Below, piece by piece: positions 1 to 15,509 of a DNA stretch of 64,000 nt. The first letter of the stretch is position 1. Each line of letters starts with the position of its first letter. The notes below the pieces were generated by a model. The model was given only the letters and a program-made list of their open reading frames with translations, was not told the origin of the DNA and did no database searches. Source of the stretch: Thecaphora thlaspeos (lineage: Eukaryota; Basidiomycota; Ustilaginomycetes; Urocystidales; Glomosporiaceae); assembly GCA_900291925.1 (NCBI GenBank), contig UWYS01000018.1, positions 124,001-188,000 of the forward strand, in the 5' to 3' direction. A program made the position numbers and the translations under genes.

Positions 1-991
1 AAAGGTGTCAAGAATCACTCTGGAATGCAACCAGCAGCAGGACAGAAAAAGCGCCTCTATTCTTCTCAAGAGTGCTCACTTGCCAGATCAGTTTGCACTG
101 GGGCATACAGGACAGAAACAGAAGCAGCAAGAGCAGCAGAACAAACCCACAGCGCTCAAATCTCAAGACAGACAATTGCATGGGCACTACACAGGCAAGG
201 GTTGAAGGTGCACATCATGAAAAGAAACCCCGGTCTCACAAAAAAGCACAAGCAGACCAGGCTTGCTTTTGCTTGACACTACAGCAACTGGTCCATGGAG
301 GACTGGAAGAGGGTCATCTGGAGCAACAAAGCAAAGATCAATATGGTTGGAAGCAATGGCAGGAAGTACTATTGGGGGCCAGTCCAAGAAAAAGCGATTC
401 CAGAGCAGGAGATTCAGACATGCAAGAAGTATGGAGGTGGTGGCATCATGTTTTGGGCCTGTATGGGTTGGAATGGCATAGGCAACATCTGCAGTATCAA
501 GGGGAGGACAAACAGCCAGATGTATGTGGAGATCTTGGAGGATCACTTGGAACCCAAGGTGGTGTGCCAAGATGGGCTTGAGGTGGCAACACTTTTACTT
601 CCAGCAGGATAAAAACCCCAAGCACAAGAGCAAAGTGGCAACAGAGTACCTCAACAAGCAGTCCTTCAAGGTCTTTGACTGGCCAAGCAAGAGCCCCAAC
701 CTCAACCCTATTGAAATTGCTTGGGCAGAACTCAAACAACACCTCTACAAGAAGACACCAATTTTCAAGAGTTTCCATGACCTTGAGGAGGCTGCAGTTT
801 CCAAGTGGACCAAGATTGAGTCAGCAGTCATCCAGAAGTTCATCAAGACTATGCCCAAGCAATTGAAGGCAGTCATTGCAGAAGGGCGGCATCACAAAGT
901 ACTAGAGCAAAAAAGATTGGGGTATGAGGAGGTGGGAAATCATGTGCATGTTTGTACAGGAAAAACAAAGGGCTCAATGTTGTTCAATTGA
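1..991 (+). pseudogene. Tc1/mariner-type DD34E transposase, decayed
   Basis: Remnant of a Tc1/mariner transposase, which would cut and paste its own DNA element. Two overlapping frames give the catalytic core. The first (about 295-612) has the RNase-H-like start with WSNKAKIN and GSNGRKYYW. The second (about 524-991) has FQQDKNPKH, then WPSKSPNLNPIE and WAELKQ. Counting from the Asp of QQD to the Glu of NPIE gives 34 intervening residues, the DD34E spacing. It is broken: a frameshift near 570-590 separates the halves, and the first catalytic Asp is Asn (325-327), with the following residue Lys. The 5' part may lie outside the window; no terminal inverted repeat was found. CpG is very scarce, unlike the host genes from 4.8 kb on. 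The family call is confident; function is certainly lost. Confidence 0.85.
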
Positions 992-1727
992 AGATCTGAG
1001 ACTATCATTAGAGAAGCGTAATCCTAAGCTTCCAATTGATACCAGGGAAAGATTGCTATGTCAAGCATTGGCTGTAATAAGAGAGGTCCAAGTCACATCA
1101 ACAAAAAAGCAATGCGTTTTTGGAGTGCCTTCCAGAGAAAAGTCTCTTTCAGTGGAAAAACGGTCAAATCAAGATTCTAAAGGGCCATTTAGATAGCTGA
1201 GAAGTAGATCTCTTTAATGGTAGCTGTTTGACATTGTTCCAATGAGTACTGCATGCAGCAGAAAATATACAAGCTAAAAGCAAGGCAGAGGTTCATAATT
1301 GACTCAGCCATCACAAGAAACCCAAAAAACGCGATTTGCTCTCCTGGCATCAACATGTGTTGTTTTGATATATTTCTTATATGGTTAGAAAGCTCTGAAG
1401 CTCAGCTTTCCAATGGTATAAGTTACATTGCCACAGCACTGTTTGACATTGAGAGAGCAGTGTGTACTTCTCAAAAACCTGGTTGCTGTCATTTACTGCA
1501 GTCAAAAATGGATGCAACTGTATGTGTTGGCCTTGGGCCAAGTTTGCATCAGCATTGGGTGTCAAGCAACACTGTATGGGTCTTGATTAATAAGTCTAGT
1601 TACTTAGCTCTCTATGTCTATGTATATTTGAAGGCTATTGACTTCTTGCCTGTTTTAAAATTGGCTAGCCTGCATTGACACCAACCTTGTTTGCCTTCTT
1701 CTTGTCTTTGAGGCCAAACTTAGCTAC
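992..1727. other. CpG-poor unassigned repeat-like DNA
   Basis: No coding region that I recognise. Base composition (AT-richer, CpG nearly absent) matches the transposon remnants on both sides, so this is probably more decayed mobile DNA. An open frame at 1253-1678 has no recognisable motif. Confidence 0.4.
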
Positions 1728-2090
1728 TGTCAGGTGTGGCCCACAGAATCTTGAGATTACTGCAGGTGCAGCCTTGGGTGTGGTTGGGACTTCAGGAGAG
1801 GCCAAGGGCAATTGGGTGTCAACAGCATACCTTGCTGTTTAGGAGACAGTGTATTATATTTGAAAAGGAGGACTGTGGGGGACCACAGTCCTGCTAGTTG
1901 GAATATTGGGTCACAGAGCTTGGAGGAGCTGGAGCCCCAGGAGATGGGCCACACATATTTCCCCCACATCAGAGCCAATGTGCCAGCTGGCACTCCTTAA
2001 TCAGCCCACTTGTCTGCTCCTCTCTGTATATATAGCCAGTTCCTTGATTGCTCTCTCTCTACAAATCACCAATCATCATCACCATTGACA
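1728..2090 (+). repeat. LTR-like segment upstream of copia gag
   Basis: Candidate 5' long terminal repeat of the copia element that follows. It starts TGTCA (1728-1732) and ends TGACA (2086-2090), a perfect 5-bp inverted terminal pair of the usual TG...CA form. It carries a TATA-like run, TATATATA, at 2027-2034, about 60 bp from its end, and lies 111 bp before the gag start codon at 2202. No second copy is present in the window, so the boundaries rest on the end motifs and position only. Another TGACA at 2106-2110 could be the true end. Confidence 0.45.
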
Positions 2091-2201
2091 TGGTTGCACC
2101 TCACTTGACAACTGATCAAGAGTCTGAGTTGCTCTTTTGAGCTACACCTCTCTCCTGGTAAGACACATTGCAGCATCATCACCACCCTCAGCACAGCCAA
2201 C

Positions 2202-3870
2202 ATGGCTGACAAACCATATGTGACCACCATCATCTCCTGCCTTGAGACAGAGCTTCACCAGCTCAAAGCTGTCCAGAGGCTCAAGAATGAGGAAGAGGCT
2301 GCCAATTCCAGCAGCCTCAGCATCAAGACCAAGACCAACATCAAGAAGATTGCTGGCACCATTGAGAAGCTCAAGCGCTCCAGCTTGGCCTTCTACACCT
2401 GGAGCAAGATGCTTCAGGATGCCCTTGACAACATCCCCAATAGCTATGCCATCCTTACCCAGTAGGACCCCTCCTTCCAGCTTGGAAGCCCCAGCTATGA
2501 TGCAGAGATTGACACCTTCCTCAGCATCATCATCTGCTTCACAGCCAACACCAGCAACAATGATGGCAATGTCAAGGACATCATTGAGTGTGTCCCAAGC
2601 AAGCACTGCCACCAGGGTAGTGTCCTCTACAGGATGCTCAAGGAGACTCTCACCATTGGTGATGCTGCTATGGCCTGCCAGATCAAGAAGGAGCTCATGC
2701 AGCTCAAGCTTGAGTTGACCATCAAGGCCCTTGGCAAGCGGATCAACAAGCTTGCCATCACAGGCAAGCACACTGGCATCACCATCACCGAGCAGGACCA
2801 GAAGGAGGCACTCCTCTCTACCTGTGAGGAGGACCCCAAGCTGGCCATCACGGTCTGCACCATTGAGGCTGGCAATAACCTGGCCCACCAGTCCTACCAT
2901 GGCACCCTCAGCTTCCTCATGGCCCAGGACTGCAAGTACACCCAGGAATCCAGTGTGCATTTGGGCTGTAGCAGGGCTGCAGCCACCAGTCCCAGCAGCA
3001 TGAGCAGCAGATGCAACCAGCAGCTCAGCAAGAACTTTTTCTGCAGCTTCTGCTGCAACCATGGCCACTGCACCAGGGATTGCAATGACCCCAGGTTTGA
3101 CATCAACATCTTCAACAAGGCCAAGGCCAGGCACAAGGAGCGCGACAGTTGTCAGCAGGACAGCAAGAAGAGCAGCAAGGGTAAGACCAGTGGCAAGACC
3201 AGCAAGACCATCAAGAGCAGCAAGGCCAACCAGGCCTTGACCACCACCAAGGACAGTGAATCCAGCGCCAAGGGCAGCACCAGCTTTGAGGACTCTGTGA
3301 GTCTCCACAACCACCAGGCCATGCACTCCACCCTCAGCAATGCCAAGACCAATGCCTGGATCCTCAACTCTGGCACTGCAGCTCACATGAGCCACCAGGA
3401 GTCAAACTTCCTCAAGCTGTGCCACACCCAGGGTTCTGTCACCCTGGCTGACAGCAGCCACACCAGCATCAAGGGAATTGGCATGGTCTACCTCCCCATC
3501 AAGCAGGAGTCAGAGCTGTCCAAACACCTTGCTCTCTGCCACTGCCTCTATGTCCCAGGACTAAAAAAAAAAACAACCTCATCTCAGGCATCCAGCTCAC
3601 AGGTGCTGGCTATGGAGTCCTGCTCACAGATGCTGAAGCCACCCTCAGTCATCCCAAGCATGGCACCTACAGCTTCCCAAAGCTCAAGGACTCCTGGCAG
3701 ATTGAGGCACCACCAGCAGCTGCAGCTGCTGCTATACAGCACTTCCTGCTTCCTCTGCCCCTGATGTCACTGCCCTCTGGCATGCTTGTATGGGCCACCC
3801 AAGCAATCAAAGGCCCTGTCACCTCCCTGACCTGGTCATTGGCATTCCTGCCAATGTTAGCAAGTGCATG
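2202..3870 (+). pseudogene. Ty1/copia gag-protease-preintegrase fragment, decayed
   Basis: Five-prime part of a Ty1/copia polyprotein. From ATG 2202 the frame reads a Gag-like alpha-helical region, is stopped by TAG at 2463-2465, and continues in the same frame to 3764. It includes a retroviral-type zinc knuckle, CSFCCNHGHCTRDC (C-x2-C-x4-H-x4-C, about 3040-3090), and a Lys/Ser-rich linker. The copia protease motif reads WILNSGTAAHMS (about 3357-3392), where the catalytic Asp is Asn (codon 3366-3368). After an 11-A run (3563-3573) the homologous reading switches frame: NNLISGIQLTGAGYG, then the preintegrase zinc motif LWHACMGHPS near 3775-3800. Similarity fades near 3870, before the integrase core and reverse transcriptase. 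The element is truncated and cannot be functional. Confidence 0.85.
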
Positions 3871-4805
3871 TCTGAGGCTTTGATGTCAGTTGGAATGAGA
3901 GGTGTGACTATGCTGATACTGATGATGGTTGGTAGTACTGAGAAGGGAAAGTACAAGCAAAGAATTGGCTAATATACAAGAAGAGAAGGCTGGTATGCCC
4001 CATATCAATTGCTGGCAGCCTCTTGGATATGCTGCCCCACCTTCCAGCTCAGATCTGTACCCCACTCTCCAACTCCACTCATGCCTCACATGGGTGCAAT
4101 CACAAAAATATCTGGGAATACAATGTTGCCACTGCAGCAACCTGGCTTTCAAGCTTTTCTTCTGGTTGGCAAGGTGCCAATGATGTGTGAATAGCCAGTC
4201 TGGTTCAGCATGATTATGCCCTTATTCCAACAGCAGATAATCATGACAGCAAGGAAGTGCTGTACTGAAACACTGTGCCCCTGCTTTTGTTCCCAACTTT
4301 TTTGCCTGTGCAAAAGTGGCTGTGCTTTTGACAAGCATTACAAAGATGAAGCTGTGATGCACAGCTTGCTAGCTGGCACTTGTGTTCATATGTTCAATCC
4401 TTTGCTTGTCACTCATTGTAGCAATGTCACTGATTTCATTGGTATCATGTATTGATAATGTAGTTCCTTCACCTGACAGCATTGGACCTCTTCAGGCCAA
4501 AGGCATAGGCTGCTCTCTCTCTTGACAGCAAGCAAGATCTTCTGCATGCAGGCTGCTGTATGTGAAGATGAGAAGTCTGTTGCAATAAGACAACTTGGTA
4601 TGATTGGTACAGGTTGGTGAGCAACTACCATGTGTACCAGGCCAAGCAGACAAATTGACCAGGGTGCTGGCATGTTTGTGAGTTCTGAGAGATATGCATA
4701 ATTATGACTTGTCTTCCCAAAATCCTGCTCCTCCAAGCCTCATGACCCAAATGTTCAATTGGACAAGATATCCACAGGGTCCTCACCCCTTTAGGCAAGT
4801 GCAGG
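3871..4805. other. CpG-poor unassigned repeat-like DNA, ends at island border
   Basis: No recognisable gene. Composition matches the transposon remnants upstream. CpG dinucleotides become frequent abruptly at about 4805-4830, which I take as the right border of the first repeat island. It may be degraded distal copia sequence, but no integrase core or reverse transcriptase motif is visible. Confidence 0.4.
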
Positions 4806-8133: not shown

Positions 8134-9356
8134 CTTGAGAAGAGACGCTCTGCGTTACCAAGAGAGGATTGCGTGAGGTGTTTTTCCGTCTTTCTGTGCC
8201 GGTAGAGACGCGGGTCGAGGCGACTGGCCGGTACAGCGCCGAGCTAGCGCGGGGCGGCTGTCTGTGAGCCACGGTTGTCTATCGGCGGAGAAGGTTTGGA
8301 AGGAGACCAGTCCACCTTGGCGTCTTGATAACGTCCAAGCGCCGAGATTGAGGTGGTGACAGGGATCTGTCTAAAAGCGCTACGGTGGCAGAGGGAAGGG
8401 AGCCGCCTAGACGAGGGAACCGCCCCAACTGCGCTACAGCCGAAGAGCCGAGACAGGCGCGAGATGTTCGAAGCGGAAGCTCTGCAACGACTGCCGAAAT
8501 GGACGGAAGGCGGGCCTCGGCAACTGCCAAGGGTGGGAGCGTACCGTGGAGAGACGAGGCTGAAGGCCAAGACTGGCGTTGGACGTCGAGGGCGGCTTTG
8601 CTGCGAGGAGCCTCTGCAGCAAGTGCTGGACCCGTTGCAGACGAAGATGAGGCCGTTCAAATGAGAGTGGCTCCGGCGATGAGCATAACTCTCGAAAGGG
8701 AGGAAAGGCGGGATCTAGGGGCCGGTCGAGGCGAGTGACGAAGGCGACAAAGGGGGCCCGAGTGTATCGTGCGCAAGTAGGAGCCGGTCGTCTAGTAGAG
8801 GAGAGAACGAAGATGGAGACCGCGAGACGAACAGAAACGAAGGCGCTGGCGTGCCGAAGACCGGATGGAGGTCTGGCGAGAGGGACAGAGAGCAAGGTTG
8901 CCGCCGGCCTTGGTATGTCGGGGTGGGTCTGCGACGCGGAAGCGTTTACTGAGAAGACAGCGGGTCTGAGCCCACGAGATGAAGCTTAGGTGGCAACCTG
9001 CGCGCTGGCTGGACGATGGCACCGTGAAGTGTTTCGAGAGGTGGAAGTGCTTGATTTTATCGAGAGACGAGAAGAGAGAGAGGGGGGGAGAGACAAGGAG
9101 AGCGAAGTGCGAAGGGAACGTGGAAGGGAGAGGCGACGACGAGTTGGGCGACCAAACAAGCAAGCCGCCACCGTCAGCTCCTCTCTGCCTGCCTCTCTCT
9201 CTCTCTCTCTCTCGCTGCCTGCCGGCCGGGAGGTCTGCCGGCCGAGAGGCCTACTGCTGCTCTGAGGCGACGCCCTCGGATTCTCGTCCAGCCTGTACTC
9301 CCTCCTACGCTGACACTTTACTCTGGTGGGCCTTTTGCACTTTTGTATCTTGACCT
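8134..9356. other. Upstream region of Reg1-like gene, no gene seen
   Basis: GC-rich, CpG-rich DNA between the Reg1-like start codon and the second repeat island. Open frames here overlap on both strands without motifs and look like GC-driven noise. A (CT)n run lies at about 9195-9213. It probably contains promoter and 5' leader. CpG stops being frequent at about 9350-9360, the edge of the next repeat island. Confidence 0.4.
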
Positions 9357-9987
9357 GGTTACTAGGTTAGCAGGCTTCCCACATTTGAATCCAAGGTTTC
9401 TTCAACTTAGTTAATTGATGCTTTTTGACAGGCCAACTCTTTCCCCTTATGCATTGCACCCTGCCAGGCCAGGCATGAGGAAGGAAGGGGGCAGCAGCAG
9501 GCAAGGGTTGCCTCAGCAATCCTGACACCATTGGCCTCCAGGCAGCATCACAAGCACAACCTTGTTGCCAGCATGCTGCTTCTTTTCCCTTGCCCTCACC
9601 CTCATCCTCATCCTTGCCAATGTTGTCCTTGCTGCTGCCATCAGAGCATACACTGCAACAGTTGCTCAGCCTATGTAACTTATATGCTTCAGCCCCAGAT
9701 CTCAAGGTGCAGTACCAACAGGAGTGGCAGTGCAGGGTGCAGGGTACAAACAAGGGGAGCTGGGAAATGAGGCAGGCACTGCACACCCATGTGTTCTTGC
9801 AGAGCAGGCCAGGGTTCAAAAGTGTTGTGGATCAAAACAAGAAACATGGCATGCCATGCCATGGGCTCTGCCTGCAATATTATTGACCCTATGATGATGC
9901 TTGATGAGATCAGCTTGGGTTCCAGGACAGAGGAAGCAAGCCGGCTTGCTACAGAGTACATACTATGCTATGTGCTATTAATTGTGA
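9357..9987. repeat. CpG-poor repeat-like DNA adjoining the left pogo copy
   Basis: I could find only one CG dinucleotide (in AGCCGGCTT near 9930) in this roughly 630-bp stretch. No reading frame with a recognisable motif. It is probably another decayed mobile element into which, or beside which, the left pogo copy lies. Confidence 0.45.
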
Positions 9988-11499
9988 GCAATATGTCTCC
10001 CTGGGAAGCTGTCCTCCCTTTTCTACCACCATCTCTTGTGTTGATGACCACACCAAAAAGGCAATACACTATGTTTCAGGTACAACTACATGCAATGCAC
10101 AACTAGTCCAGCTTGCCAAGTCCTCCACAGCCACCATAGGGGTCACAGAAGATCAGGGGGACATTGTAGGCCTCAAGCCTGCTTGGCCTGGGCAGGGAGG
10201 GGTCCAGTGCAAGTGACTCAGTCATTGTGGGTGGCTTGGCAGTCTCAATGGGTGGTGAGCCACTCTCCTATGGCCCTGCCAATCATCTGGTCCTTGCAGA
10301 TGTAGCAGCAGTCACCTGGCTTGGTGATGGTCTTGAGCAGTGAGGCACTGCAACACTTCTTCTTGTTGGCAAGCTTGGCTGCATGATGCCAAGTCTTGGC
10401 TGCCTTGAGCAGCTTGTGCCAGACAAGGCTGCCCTTTTTCTCATCTGTGCTGCCCTGCAGTTTGCACAGGAGGTGGTTGAAGCAATGCAGAGTTGTTGGC
10501 ATCTCAATGTAGGGTCCCTCAATGGCTTGTGGTGGCATCTGCAGGCATGCTGGCTTGTATCCAGGGAGTGTTGCAAGAGCACCTTGTTGGGGTTTGGCAG
10601 CACTGTGAGGCCAACATTGGCAAAAGCCTTTTGGATGGCAGTCTTGCTGATGGCATTGTGAGCCTCTGTGTAGAACTTGGCAAACAGAAGCTGGTCCACC
10701 TTCTTGTTCCCTCCAATTGCTGCAACCCAGCAGCTGTAATTGCTCTTGATTGGACCAAAGATGCCAATGTCAAGGGGCTGGATGATGTGGGTAGCATGGG
10801 CAGGGAAGCAGACTGGCTCAATCCAAAGCACCCAGCACTTGTTGCAGAAGTTGAGGGACACATGCAAGGTGTGGCTGTCAAGGAGGAGGAGGTGTCATTT
10901 GCCAGCTTGTGCACCCATTGGCTCTGTTGCTCGCTCAAAGACCCTCTCAAGCCACTCAAGGGCAAGGTTGTTGTTTGTCCAGCCCTAGGGCAAGATGGCA
11001 AAATGCCAGTTGGGCCTTGGGCCCTCCATGTGGCAGTAGTCCCCAAGGTGATGCCACTGCCCATGCCAGATGACAAGAGAGTCCAAGAAGAGGCCACTCA
11101 AGCCAACACACTTGATGATTGTTGTTGACTCTCAATTGCTGGGCTGGACATGGAAGGTGTTCTTCTTTCCTGCTGGCACAACAACCTTTTGCCTCCTGGA
11201 AAAGCCCATGATCATGCCTGTCTTGTCCATGTTGTACAGCTGGTCCCATGTGATGCCATACTCCTTGATGGTGCAGGCAAAGATGTTGTAGAAGGTGGCA
11301 AGGTTGTCAAGCTTTGCTGCCTCTTTGCAGACAGCTTGGCAGTGTGACAGTAGGACTGTGTGGCACAGCCTGATGGCAGAATAGCAGTGAAGACCACTTT
11401 GGCAATGGTGGAGTCAGAGAGAGGAAATAGCAATACAGGAGGAGATGGTGCACCATGGTGGTAGAAAAGGGAGGACAGCTTCCTAGGGAGATGCATTAG
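9988..11499 (-). mobile_element. Dead pogo/Fot1-type DNA transposon, left copy
   Basis: Mirror image of the right copy (13998-15509), read on the minus strand. It has the same three in-frame stops and the same retained DD35D-type residues. Its outer terminus (about 9988-9993) has diverged from the expected CTAATG end. No intact transposase can be made. Details of motifs are given with the right copy. Confidence 0.85.
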
Positions 11500-11523
11500 C
11501 ACCTCTGCTTTTTGCGGAGGAAA
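9994..11523 (-). repeat. Left arm of 1,530-bp inverted repeat
   Basis: Reverse complement of 13974-15503. Paired coordinates always sum to 25497. Every translation I compared across the arm (for example the 194- and 192-residue frames) is the same in both arms, and both arm ends were aligned base by base. The arm contains the left pogo element plus 24 bp of non-element DNA on its inner side (11500-11523). At the outer end the match fails at 9993, where the left copy's last terminal bases differ from the right copy's. Confidence 0.9.
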
Positions 11524-11775
11524 AGGGAGGCGTGCTCCAAAGGTGGCGCAGGCGCGGGTCGAGCCTCCACGTAGCCCTCATCCACCCGCACGCCCGCACG
11601 GTCCACACGCCCGTCGCCTGAACGCTGGCCTGCCACTCACGACTGGATAAGGGCGGAGGCCGCAAAAGCTCAGCAACCCGCTCCGCCGCGGAAGGGCAGC
11701 GCCAGTCGGGCCCCGCCTCGCCGCAAGACGAGCAAGAACGAGGCTGCACGCCATCGGCATCACTACTCTTCCTCG
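11524..11775. other. Spacer DNA between left arm and the enclosed gene
   Basis: CpG-rich host-type DNA just inside the left arm, probably the upstream region of the gene at 11776-12943. No motif identified. Confidence 0.35.
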
Positions 11776-12943
11776 TTGACCACCATCATCTCGCCAACAT
11801 CGCACATCGCCTCTCTCGGCCATGCCGCTCCGCCTCACCGCTGCTCCAGACCCGCTGGCATACGACTCGTGACGACGCAACGGGCCATGCTCATTTCGCC
11901 CCGACCCGTCATGGACCCCGCAAGAGCAAGCTTCGATCCTCCGCTGGTCGACGGGGCCTCGCTCCTCCCAGAAACCCAGTCACCGTCAACGGGTCCCATC
12001 AGCGTGGCCGAGGCGAGTGCGTCGCATGGTCAAGCACGGCCCCTCGAACCTATCTCGTCGTCTCCGGTCGAGGCGTTTCCCTCGCCACCTCCTCCATCCA
12101 ACCCTTCCGCCACCTCGCCTAGGAAATTCTTTCCCAGACCTCTTCCCTTCCGCGTCGTCTCGAGTACTAAGTTGCCGAGCCAGGCGCCTTTCTCGACTGA
12201 GGACAAGGATATGCTGCGCCGCGACGACGACGTCAATCTTCGCACCAACGCGGCACAGGACAAGAAGGCCGAAGGTAGCGGCGACGATGATGACTATGGG
12301 CCAGAGCTCGACGACGATGATCGTAAGCATCATCCTCGCCGCCGTGTACAAGGCACTCCCAGCAGCGATTGCTAACCTATGCATCGCATTCCCGGATGTT
12401 GTTTCGATCGGTTCCCGCTCCTGAACCACAGTGGCCAGACTGGCCGAGATTGAGGCCGAGAGCGTACAGCCCATGGCAGCGGCGTCCACTTTGCCTAGGA
12501 TGCAAAGTGGCATGGCTCGCAAGGTGCCACCGCTATCGTCATCTCCTTATCAGGAACCCCCTTCCGATGGGCACCACGAAGCCATGGCGGGCAGACGATC
12601 CTACTTCGAGACTTCCCTTACGTCCGGACCGGCGCCGCGGGACTCTTCGACTCGGACCGTCCAGCTCGATGCTTTGTCGACCCCGGCAGTCCTCCACGGC
12701 CAGCCACACGCTACACCTGCCCTCTCGGCATCGAGAGGCGAAGGTGACTTGCTCCAACCGCTCTTCGAAGAGGTGCACTCGGCGCTCGAAGAACTGAGGC
12801 GAAGGTGCGGTCACCAGGTCAAAGCGCTGCAGGGCGAGATTGCGAGGCGTGATCTGATCATCAGCCAACTCCGCGACGAGATGTCCATCGCCTTGCACGG
12901 TCGGTTGCCGTCGCGATCCCAGAGCGCTCCCCGAGCGACGTGA
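11776..12943 (+). CDS. Unrecognised spliced protein inside the inverted repeat
   Basis: Model: exon 1 11776-12322, intron 12323-12431 (GTAAGC...CACAG, branch-like GCTAAC at 12370), exon 2 12432-12943. Phase is kept across the junction, giving about 352 residues. The start is uncertain: the frame is open from 11776, and internal Met codons near 11887 and 11911 are alternatives. The N-terminal part is Pro/Ser-rich, with an acidic patch (EGSGDDDDYGPELDDDD) just before the splice. The C-terminal third reads as a likely coiled coil (LFEEVHSALEELRRR, then VKALQGEIARRDLIISQL). I do not recognise a family. It is the only plausible gene in the 2,450-bp spacer between two inverted dead transposons, and its CpG-rich composition is host-like. 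Confidence 0.5.
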
Positions 12944-13973
12944 ACCGGGACGTCCGACCGTTGCGACTCGCGCCGTCATGCTTCTACTCGAAAGCTTGCC
13001 CAATTCTCTCACGAACACGCTCTAGTCATCTTTCGGCCTTGTTGCTGGAGAGCTCCTCCAAGGAGCCGCACTCCGCTGCTCTGCCCCTCCAGTCTACGAC
13101 GCTCTACGGACACCGCGCTCTGTGCTCCTTACAAGACCTCTGCACCGTGGCGCGGCCGCTCACAAGTCACCGCCCCTTGCCTGTATCAGTACCCACCGAC
13201 TTGCTTGTTGCGTTGTAAATGTACCTAGCTCCTCCAAGGTGTCAATTGCCACTTGGACAGATTGCTGATAGCGGCGGCGTCGAGCGATCGGGGCAAATGC
13301 GGAGATGCTCTCTAGCGATATCGAGAGTCAGCAAGGCACCACTGGACCGCACGTAGTCGGACGCAGCCCGTCGCAATTGCGGCGTCAGCCAAGCCTCTTT
13401 GAACCTCGTACGCACGACGCAGGCCCTCTTGTTGGCACAAAGTTGCAAGAGAGAGATGCGATAGAGGCGGACGGGGCTTCACCGTGTGCCTAATCGACAG
13501 GAGGATTTCGTCCTCCTCCCCCGGCGACTCTCTCCTCGTCCCCAGGGTCCTCTCTCTGCCGGGCTCTCGGTACTGGGTGGTGCCTCGTTCGTGGTTCTGC
13601 CCAGTAGCATAGCGGCCGTCAGGTCTTAAGGAGCACACGGAGGCGAAGGTGTCGGCGGCTTCTTCTTGACGTGGGCCGGCAAGCTTGCGAGCAGACCAGG
13701 CGCGGACGTTCCAGGGTCAGGTGTGAGTGACTGGCGGTCGATTGGACTGTGGGCTCGACGAGCCTCCTGCCAGGCTTTCGCAGGACCAACATCCTTCCGG
13801 CGGCGGCACTACTCTACTACCTAGAGTGAGAGATAAAGTACAGTGCTGCAGAGTCAAAGAGGAGATGCCACAGCATGCTCTTGCGTGGGTCGTCGACACT
13901 GCCGCTGATCAGAAGCGGGCTGTGGAAGACGCGTCAGCCAATCTCGAAAAAGATGGCGGATCGGAGCGTCAGC
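12944..13973. other. Spacer DNA, no gene seen
   Basis: About 1 kb of CpG-rich DNA between the enclosed gene's stop and the right arm. Open frames use non-ATG starts and show no motif. It presumably includes the 3' UTR of the enclosed gene. Confidence 0.35.
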
Positions 13974-15503
13974 TTTCCTCCGCAAAAAGCAGAGGTGCTA
14001 ATGCATCTCCCTAGGAAGCTGTCCTCCCTTTTCTACCACCATGGTGCACCATCTCCTCCTGTATTGCTATTTCCTCTCTCTGACTCCACCATTGCCAAAG
14101 TGGTCTTCACTGCTATTCTGCCATCAGGCTGTGCCACACAGTCCTACTGTCACACTGCCAAGCTGTCTGCAAAGAGGCAGCAAAGCTTGACAACCTTGCC
14201 ACCTTCTACAACATCTTTGCCTGCACCATCAAGGAGTATGGCATCACATGGGACCAGCTGTACAACATGGACAAGACAGGCATGATCATGGGCTTTTCCA
14301 GGAGGCAAAAGGTTGTTGTGCCAGCAGGAAAGAAGAACACCTTCCATGTCCAGCCCAGCAATTGAGAGTCAACAACAATCATCAAGTGTGTTGGCTTGAG
14401 TGGCCTCTTCTTGGACTCTCTTGTCATCTGGCATGGGCAGTGGCATCACCTTGGGGACTACTGCCACATGGAGGGCCCAAGGCCCAACTGGCATTTTGCC
14501 ATCTTGCCCTAGGGCTGGACAAACAACAACCTTGCCCTTGAGTGGCTTGAGAGGGTCTTTGAGCGAGCAACAGAGCCAATGGGTGCACAAGCTGGCAAAT
14601 GACACCTCCTCCTCCTTGACAGCCACACCTTGCATGTGTCCCTCAACTTCTGCAACAAGTGCTGGGTGCTTTGGATTGAGCCAGTCTGCTTCCCTGCCCA
14701 TGCTACCCACATCATCCAGCCCCTTGACATTGGCATCTTTGGTCCAATCAAGAGCAATTACAGCTGCTGGGTTGCAGCAATTGGAGGGAACAAGAAGGTG
14801 GACCAGCTTCTGTTTGCCAAGTTCTACACAGAGGCTCACAATGCCATCAGCAAGACTGCCATCCAAAAGGCTTTTGCCAATGTTGGCCTCACAGTGCTGC
14901 CAAACCCCAACAAGGTGCTCTTGCAACACTCCCTGGATACAAGCCAGCATGCCTGCAGATGCCACCACAAGCCATTGAGGGACCCTACATTGAGATGCCA
15001 ACAACTCTGCATTGCTTCAACCACCTCCTGTGCAAACTGCAGGGCAGCACAGATGAGAAAAAGGGCAGCCTTGTCTGGCACAAGCTGCTCAAGGCAGCCA
15101 AGACTTGGCATCATGCAGCCAAGCTTGCCAACAAGAAGAAGTGTTGCAGTGCCTCACTGCTCAAGACCATCACCAAGCCAGGTGACTGCTGCTACATCTG
15201 CAAGGACCAGATGATTGGCAGGGCCATAGGAGAGTGGCTCACCACCCATTGAGACTGCCAAGCCACCCACAATGACTGAGTCACTTGCACTGGACCCCTC
15301 CCTGCCCAGGCCAAGCAGGCTTGAGGCCTACAATGTCCCCCTGATCTTCTGTGACCCCTATGGTGGCTGTGGAGGACTTGGCAAGCTGGACTAGTTGTGC
15401 ATTGCATGTAGTTGTACCTGAAACATAGTGTATTGCCTTTTTGGTGTGGTCATCAACACAAGAGATGGTGGTAGAAAAGGGAGGACAGCTTCCCAGGGAG
15501 ACA
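13974..15503 (+). repeat. Right arm of 1,530-bp inverted repeat
   Basis: Inverted counterpart of 9994-11523; the arms enclose 2,450 bp (11524-13973). The shared sequence begins at TTTCCTCCGC (13974), 24 bp before the transposon end, and stops at 15503, six bases short of this copy's outer terminus. Confidence 0.9.
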
Positions 15504-15509
15504 CATTAG
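13998..15509 (+). mobile_element. Dead pogo/Fot1-type DNA transposon, right copy
   Basis: Terminal inverted repeats begin CTAATG (13998) and end CATTAG (15504-15509) and extend about 45 bp (TCTCCCT.GGAAGCTGTCC, then CTTTTCTACCACCA). TA flanks the outer end (15510-15511), fitting the TA target preference of the family; the inner side reads TG. The transposase remnant has NMDKTG (first catalytic Asp), LLLLDSHTLHV (second) and IIQPLDIGIFGPIKSNY (third), with 35 residues between the second and third Asp. It is broken by stops at 14363-14365, 14510-14512 and 14600-14602. It also lacks room for the usual N-terminal helix-turn-helix/CENP-B DNA-binding domains, so it is short as well as dead. I count one CG between 14000 and 15500. 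Confidence 0.88.

Follow-up and report, generated by a model that had tools for sequence, protein, structure and literature searches.

A perfect inverted repeat of two CpG-depleted, putative pogo-type transposon copies around a gene in Thecaphora thlaspeos

The inverted repeat and the elements within it

The window analyzed here is a 64,000-nucleotide stretch of the basidiomycete Thecaphora thlaspeos (GenBank assembly GCA_900291925.1, contig UWYS01000018.1; C18:124001-188000 in our contig numbering), taken from the genome of one strain with 20,591,595 bases in 32 contigs. Of seven matches to a protein encoded in the window, the best, at 66% identity, comes from T. frezii. An earlier note on this DNA had described two identical, decayed pogo elements mirrored around a gene, and it is this pair of arms, 9994-11523 on the forward strand and 13974-15503 on the reverse strand, that concerns us. 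Base-by-base comparison of the left arm with the reverse complement of the right gave 0 mismatches in 1,530 positions, in full agreement with the mirrored identity first noticed. When one mismatch is tolerated, the match grows to 9990-11523 and 13974-15507 (1 mismatch in 1,534). By the rule of three, our own arithmetic on 0 differences in 1,530 bp puts an upper bound of about 0.2% on arm divergence. A chance origin of the identity is excluded because the subfamily's ten further decayed copies are 4.2-11.1% different from the left copy, C18L.

The repeat does not coincide with the element. The right arm holds copy C18R minus its outer 3 bp and TA, and the complete element runs from terminal inverted repeat (TIR) to TIR over 1,506 bp (14001-15506, reverse strand), flanked by TA at 13999-14000 and 15507-15508. 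The element portion of the left arm (9994-11496, forward strand) has no canonical outer end: its outer side reads CA-ATA-TGTCTCCC, compared with TA-ATG-TGTCTCCC in the right copy, position 9993 (the last base preceding the match) differs between the two, and the outer TA is missing. On the inner side both arms carry the same 25 bp of non-element flank (11499-11523, forward; 13974-13998, reverse), which is probably native to the right copy, where the element has TA and TIR at both ends. The identical tract starts 3 bp inside one element end and overruns the other by 25 bp of chromosome. A 22-bp core of this flank occurs at only two places in the assembly, one per arm, and no third match was found with up to 2 mismatches allowed. 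The statement that two pogo elements form the repeat thus stands as to element type, with a DDE_1 match in both arms, but not as to extent, since the repeat includes chromosomal sequence beyond the inner TA and the left copy lacks its outer TA. The spacer (11524-13973) and left flank (8700-9993) returned only self matches in an assembly search that skips very common words, and the blocks 1-4800 and 9300-9993 and the spacer had no match to the other fetched pogo loci. Around the two copies lie four mutually unrelated flanks. Within the 25-bp flank, close to where the copy ends, a hairpin with z of -1.93 and -1.85 is too weak for use, and 11524-11537, which looks like a TIR end by eye, is not counted as evidence.

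Both arms match DDE_1 (PF03184) at 83.2 bits each against a cut-off of 22, with one TGA and one TAG inside the match per arm, and a single open reading frame piece reaches 47.1 bits. The three in-frame stops reported earlier are present in the DDE part of the frame (left arm 11132-11134, 10985-10987 and 10895-10897), among nine stops in that frame over the whole element. A relative with an open frame matches DDE_1, HTH_Tnp_Tc5 (27.9 bits) and, below the cut-off of 20.4, HTH_psq (19.9 bits). The scan of two arm pieces reported no helix-turn-helix (HTH) domain, and the positive HTH scan comes from this one relative. Because the first DDE motif (MDKTG) comes after only 89 codons in the arm copies, compared with 184 in the relative, the dead, short arm copies would seem to have little room for a DNA-binding part. 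A search of solved structures returned no match at E ≤ 0.1. Hallmarks of pogo/Fot-type transposons are DDE_1, a TA target, TIRs and an N-terminal HTH of the psq or Tc5-CENP-B type. Judged from its DDE_1 match, TA target and TIRs, together with HTH_Tnp_Tc5 and a sub-threshold HTH_psq in the relative scanned, the element appears to be a pogo-type DNA transposon.

The genome-wide search that the earlier note had called for recovered 35 copies, whose ends are variants of TA-ACGCGTCTCCCTGGGAA (35 loci). Their statistics were compiled from 55 ends and then recounted with 56, with C18L/R and C17d/e excluded; one C13 end absent from the first set is included in the second, and 2 of 58 motif hits were set aside as not TIR-like. 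TA starts 45 of the 56 recounted ends, and exact TAACGCG is found in 23 of 56 (31 loci). Relative to random sequence, the right outer end fits these statistics 42-55 times better, and the ratio for the left outer end is 0.004, or about 0.2 by our own estimate if rare substitutions are permitted. The left outer side has C in place of the T of TA, and TA at the first CpG, and neither occurs among the 55 or 56 family ends. TA and TIR are found at both ends of the right copy and fail at the outer end of the left. Several old copies (C5a, C7a, C18c, C2b, C2c and C17e) retain CpGs in one or both terminal repeats around a nearly CpG-free interior; decay may have spared the ends, or selection may have favored mobile ones.

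The 2,450-bp spacer accommodates the gene previously placed there: a two-exon model at 11887-12943 on the forward strand (exons 11887-12322 and 12432-12943, with a GT..AG intron) gives an open frame of 315 amino acids. Among 7,992 candidates scored, its product has a single match at E ≤ 0.001, PFL1_05378 of Pseudozyma flocculosa, with 46% identity over 33%.

Decay and the order of events

The near-total loss of CpG noted earlier is borne out by an observed/expected ratio (o/e) of 0.019 in the arms versus 0.98 in the window. TpG and CpA are raised (1.66 and 1.86), and TpA is depleted (0.31). The 800-bp flanks of the right copy are normal, at 0.95 and 0.83. Adjoining the left arm is a CpG-dead block at about 9380-9993, its left edge approximate, with CpG o/e of 0.00-0.30 in 250-bp steps of 9251-10000; no second copy of it was found, the search of 8700-9993 giving a self match only. 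Over 28 copies of the family the ratio is bimodal, with 14 old copies at 0.01-0.14 and 14 young copies at 0.41-0.67. At 99 inferred ancestral CpG sites C18L has 47 TG, 50 CA, 2 TA and 0 CG, and the decay is CpG loss on both strands. Repeat-induced point mutation (RIP), which in fungi is likewise a C-to-T change confined to repeats, was considered and rejected: its typical bias is CpA to TpA, whereas the arms decay at CpG into TG and CA about equally and TpA is depleted rather than enriched. CpG methylation is plausible in T. thlaspeos, as is RNA silencing, because the genome has domain matches to DNA methyltransferase (PF00145; C4:59711-60268, in a 2,575-amino-acid frame, and C21:100715-102128) and to Argonaute (Piwi; C4:324887-325813).

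At each ancestral CpG of a dead copy the outcome, TG or CA, was close to random, and the series of outcomes can be read as a barcode. We compared it among 12 old copies; C17d and C17e were omitted as a distant subfamily, and C18L, being the same as C18R, does not enter the 55 pairs. Where the block signal is weakest, in 43 of these pairs, 1388 of 2581 sites (54%) agree, and agreement with C18L among the other old copies runs from 16/40 (C17c) through 36/84 (C7a) and 40/92 (C16) to 76/95 (C23). The two arms have the same outcome at 97 of 97 informative sites (fair-coin p = 6e-30). Since most other dead pairs agree at only about half, it is strongly supported that decay preceded the copying of the arms, as the earlier note had argued. 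The same figures refute the independent decay of two insertions to an identical sequence, in whose favor we found nothing and which, again as first proposed, can be dismissed. The copying looks recent on the family's own scale, given 0 differences in 1,530 bp between the arms and 3.4% non-CpG substitutions between C18L and C5a.

The barcode also reveals that dead copies exchanged blocks after decay. C18R and C23, which lie on different contigs, have about 9 differences per 100 bp up to element position 635 and then few until about 1400; barcode agreement is 61/62 inside this block and 15/34 outside, and other substitutions number 8/803 inside and 13/504 outside. With C18c, about 108 kb away on the same contig, C18R agrees at 30/30 sites inside positions 316-679 and 26/44 outside (other substitutions 4/301 and 22/732). 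Part of the arm sequence matches one relative and part another, as in a gene-conversion mosaic, and the arms themselves are mosaic with C23 and C18c blocks. A block in C2a/C2c (22/22 inside, 13/25 outside; other substitutions 1/233 and 16/484) follows the same pattern, as does one in C5a/C7a (20/21 and 29/60; 0/227 and 45/1062), although the longest-run p of the latter, 0.0021, fails the Bonferroni threshold of 0.0009. Six of the 55 pairs pass this test: C2b/C2c, C18R/C23, C18R/C18c, C2a/C2c, C2a/C2b and C23/C2a. All four same-contig pairs among the 55 fall within these six (hypergeometric 4e-5), a figure to be read with the four not being independent cases, as C2b and C2c are near-copies.

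Alike pairs and the origin of the left copy

A wider view of the family comes from ranking the 588 pairs among the 35 copies whose alignment spans 300 bases or more. The first alignment covered 28 of the 35 loci (seven were dropped for one unclear end or for lying within a larger repeat), and the ten closest pairs keep their order with all 35. Eight of these ten share a contig, a count that none of 20,000 label shuffles attained, and the four closest (C18L/R, C17a/b, C9a/b and C17d/e) are all inverted. Local hopping and same-chromosome conversion could each play a part in this neighborhood effect, as could deletions that remove direct pairs. Alike dead copies are not unique to the window, because C17d/e (1 discordant versus 357 equal TG/CA dinucleotides, with all TG or CA counted rather than former CpGs alone) and C2b/C2c (barcode 46/49, unrelated flanks) are also CpG-dead and alike. 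The inverted pair C17a/C17b, with 2 differences in 1,259 bp, ends at TA and has unrelated flanks, which fits transposition as well as conversion.

The clearest case of conversion is the inverted pair on C9 (C9:344353-345275 and 355168-356058, 10 kb apart; L046 and L047), in which 894 bp, 27 of them outside the donor TIR, show no difference. In C9a, which sits in CpG-dead surroundings, the decayed left end (TAATGTG...) is still the original one, and the body has been replaced by the CpG-bearing sequence of C9b. We dropped this pair as an exact parallel of the run-off into donor flank in the window, as relatives of C9a carry a similar flank stretch and the exit was probably by short homology. 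Around the pogo element, C24, C19, C21a and C9b have 1.1-2.0 kb of a larger repeat in common, of which C15b has 191 bp or more (L007, L017, L020, L047 and L060). C21a has a CCAGCAGG..CAACTAA motif on both sides of the element.

For the window we consider it probable that repair-templated copying carried the right copy to the left site in inverted orientation. A pogo-type transposon would have inserted at a TA (13999-15508) and then lost its CpGs to TpG and CpA by decay that did not extend beyond the element, and its lineage would have swapped blocks with further dead copies. The repair of a DNA break near 9993, at the edge of the CpG-dead block, would have followed much later, with about 1.53 kb of the right copy serving as template for an inverted tract that begins 3 bp inside that copy's outer end and runs 25 bp past its inner TA into the chromosomal flank. 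Templated repair synthesis, similar to synthesis-dependent strand annealing (SDSA), could have made a fresh templated insertion at the left site or overwritten one that was already there. In a templated insertion donor flank is copied and element ends are ignored, and here the 25-bp flank is present and the boundary lies 3 bp inside the TIR. Of the copying, inversion or gene conversion among which the earlier note did not choose, repair-type copying is now favored over transposition because of the common flank and the missing left outer end; its further suggestion that the arms are being kept alike may or may not hold, as continuing homogenization would look the same in one genome as a single recent event. 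The right copy is the likely donor because its outer end fits the family statistics (42-55) and the left outer end does not (0.004). The identity of the arms, the order of events, the common flank and the block exchange among dead copies are shown by the data; break repair, a right-to-left direction and a single recent event are what we infer from them. A larger segmental duplication was ruled out by the self-only matches of the spacer and left flank in the search that skips very common words.

Several observations weigh against this account. Junction sequences alone do not prove repair, and the empty site of the left copy is not visible from a single strain. Three of the five bases beside the left breakpoint match the end of the right copy (about 10% by chance, our own estimate), so an earlier insertion may have stood at the left site and been overwritten. 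Among the candidate exchange blocks, that of C23/C2a is unsupported by other substitutions (11/202 inside versus 37/1098 outside) and the pair is not counted, and that of C2a/C2b is not clearly backed by them (3/136 versus 15/581). C9a, finally, appears to exit at a short stretch of homology that the flanks have in common, CTGCTGGGGG, as judged from its relatives C21a and C15a.

A variant of templated copying, which we regard as possible though less likely, starts from two independent inverted insertions, the left of which was almost wholly overwritten by the right in non-allelic gene conversion with flank capture, the arms perhaps still being homogenized. In C9a/C9b a conversion that spared the recipient's own end is clear, block exchange is seen among dead copies, and the 3/5 likeness of the left outer end would fit. 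Against it, the C for T in TA and the TA at the first CpG are absent from 55 and 56 family ends, and no other remnant of an independent left element is present. A recipient that keeps its own sequence is clear in C9a, whereas the left arm would keep at most a few bases by the breakpoint, which are not statistically TIR-like. More doubtful is the broader idea that dead, CpG-free transposons are actively and preferentially homogenized within a chromosome, mainly as inverted pairs, so that palindromes spanning a few kb to tens of kb stay perfect long after element death, with the enclosed gene able to flip.

Transposition of a dead copy by the transposase of another element is improbable. Relatives with a stop-free DDE match are present in the genome, and other near-identical pairs, such as C17a/C17b, end at TA with unrelated flanks; the CpG-dead pair C2b/C2c, with 46/49 barcode agreement, also has unrelated flanks. 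Cut-and-paste transposition, however, moves an element from TIR to TIR with TA and carries no flank, so the 25 bp beyond the TIR common to both arms and the lack of a canonical end and TA in the left copy would require an aberrant event at a cryptic end. An assembly artefact, one real copy placed twice, has a slightly smaller chance still: perfect identity within a repeat, judged from an assembly without raw reads, would suit it, but the flanks are four and unrelated, the repeat ends at different element-relative points on its two sides, and inverted pairs less than 1% different recur on C9, C17 (two) and C14.

Implications and known systems

A dead element of this kind is a binary TG/CA record of its own decay, in which common blocks reveal exchange after death without outgroups, and ectopic gene conversion between dead transposons can be measured within one assembly. 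Element ages taken from pairwise identity can mislead, and perfect 1.5-kb arms around a gene make inversion of the spacer gene testable. A limited literature search, a thin basis for novelty, found neither TG/CA decay used as a conversion barcode nor a report of this arm pair in Thecaphora.

Elsewhere in the window, positions 1-4750 (C18:124001-128750) hold a nest of CpG-dead sequence made up of a Tc1/mariner-like piece (DDE_3) and, with ends resembling long terminal repeats (LTRs), a Copia-like element (Pol_BBD). Among the matches listed, with 40 of 59 candidates scored, the nest forms one cluster of less than 9 kb on each of 23 of the 32 contigs (C1-C22 and C29) and could be a centromere marker, one per chromosome. 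The palindrome lies 5-11 kb from this candidate centromere.

The arm copies share DDE_1, the TA target and TIRs with pogo/Fot-type transposons, and a relative has the Tc5-type HTH, although both copies are dead and short. The process itself, non-allelic gene conversion or templated repair between transposons, is of a known kind in unusually clear form. Higher gene conversion in heterochromatin is described for another fungus in PMC10294615. The review PMC6598467 describes non-allelic conversion between transposons (Alu, LTRs, Ty/Tf2) that is stronger for near copies and in which old copies can be replaced by young ones. Mosaic copies, overwriting of old by younger sequence and more exchange between close copies are alike in the two settings; unlike the Alu, LTR and Ty/Tf2 cases, the arms are CpG-dead DNA transposons with a near-whole-element tract that carries non-element flank. 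In rice, PMC4423477 reports SDSA filler DNA at DNA-transposon excisions, with fillers averaging 13 bp (1-123 bp). Foreign segments copied into a break, and breaks tied to DNA transposons, are common to both systems, whereas the arms would represent a single inverted tract of 1,530 bp whose source lies about 2.5 kb off, with excision not seen here.

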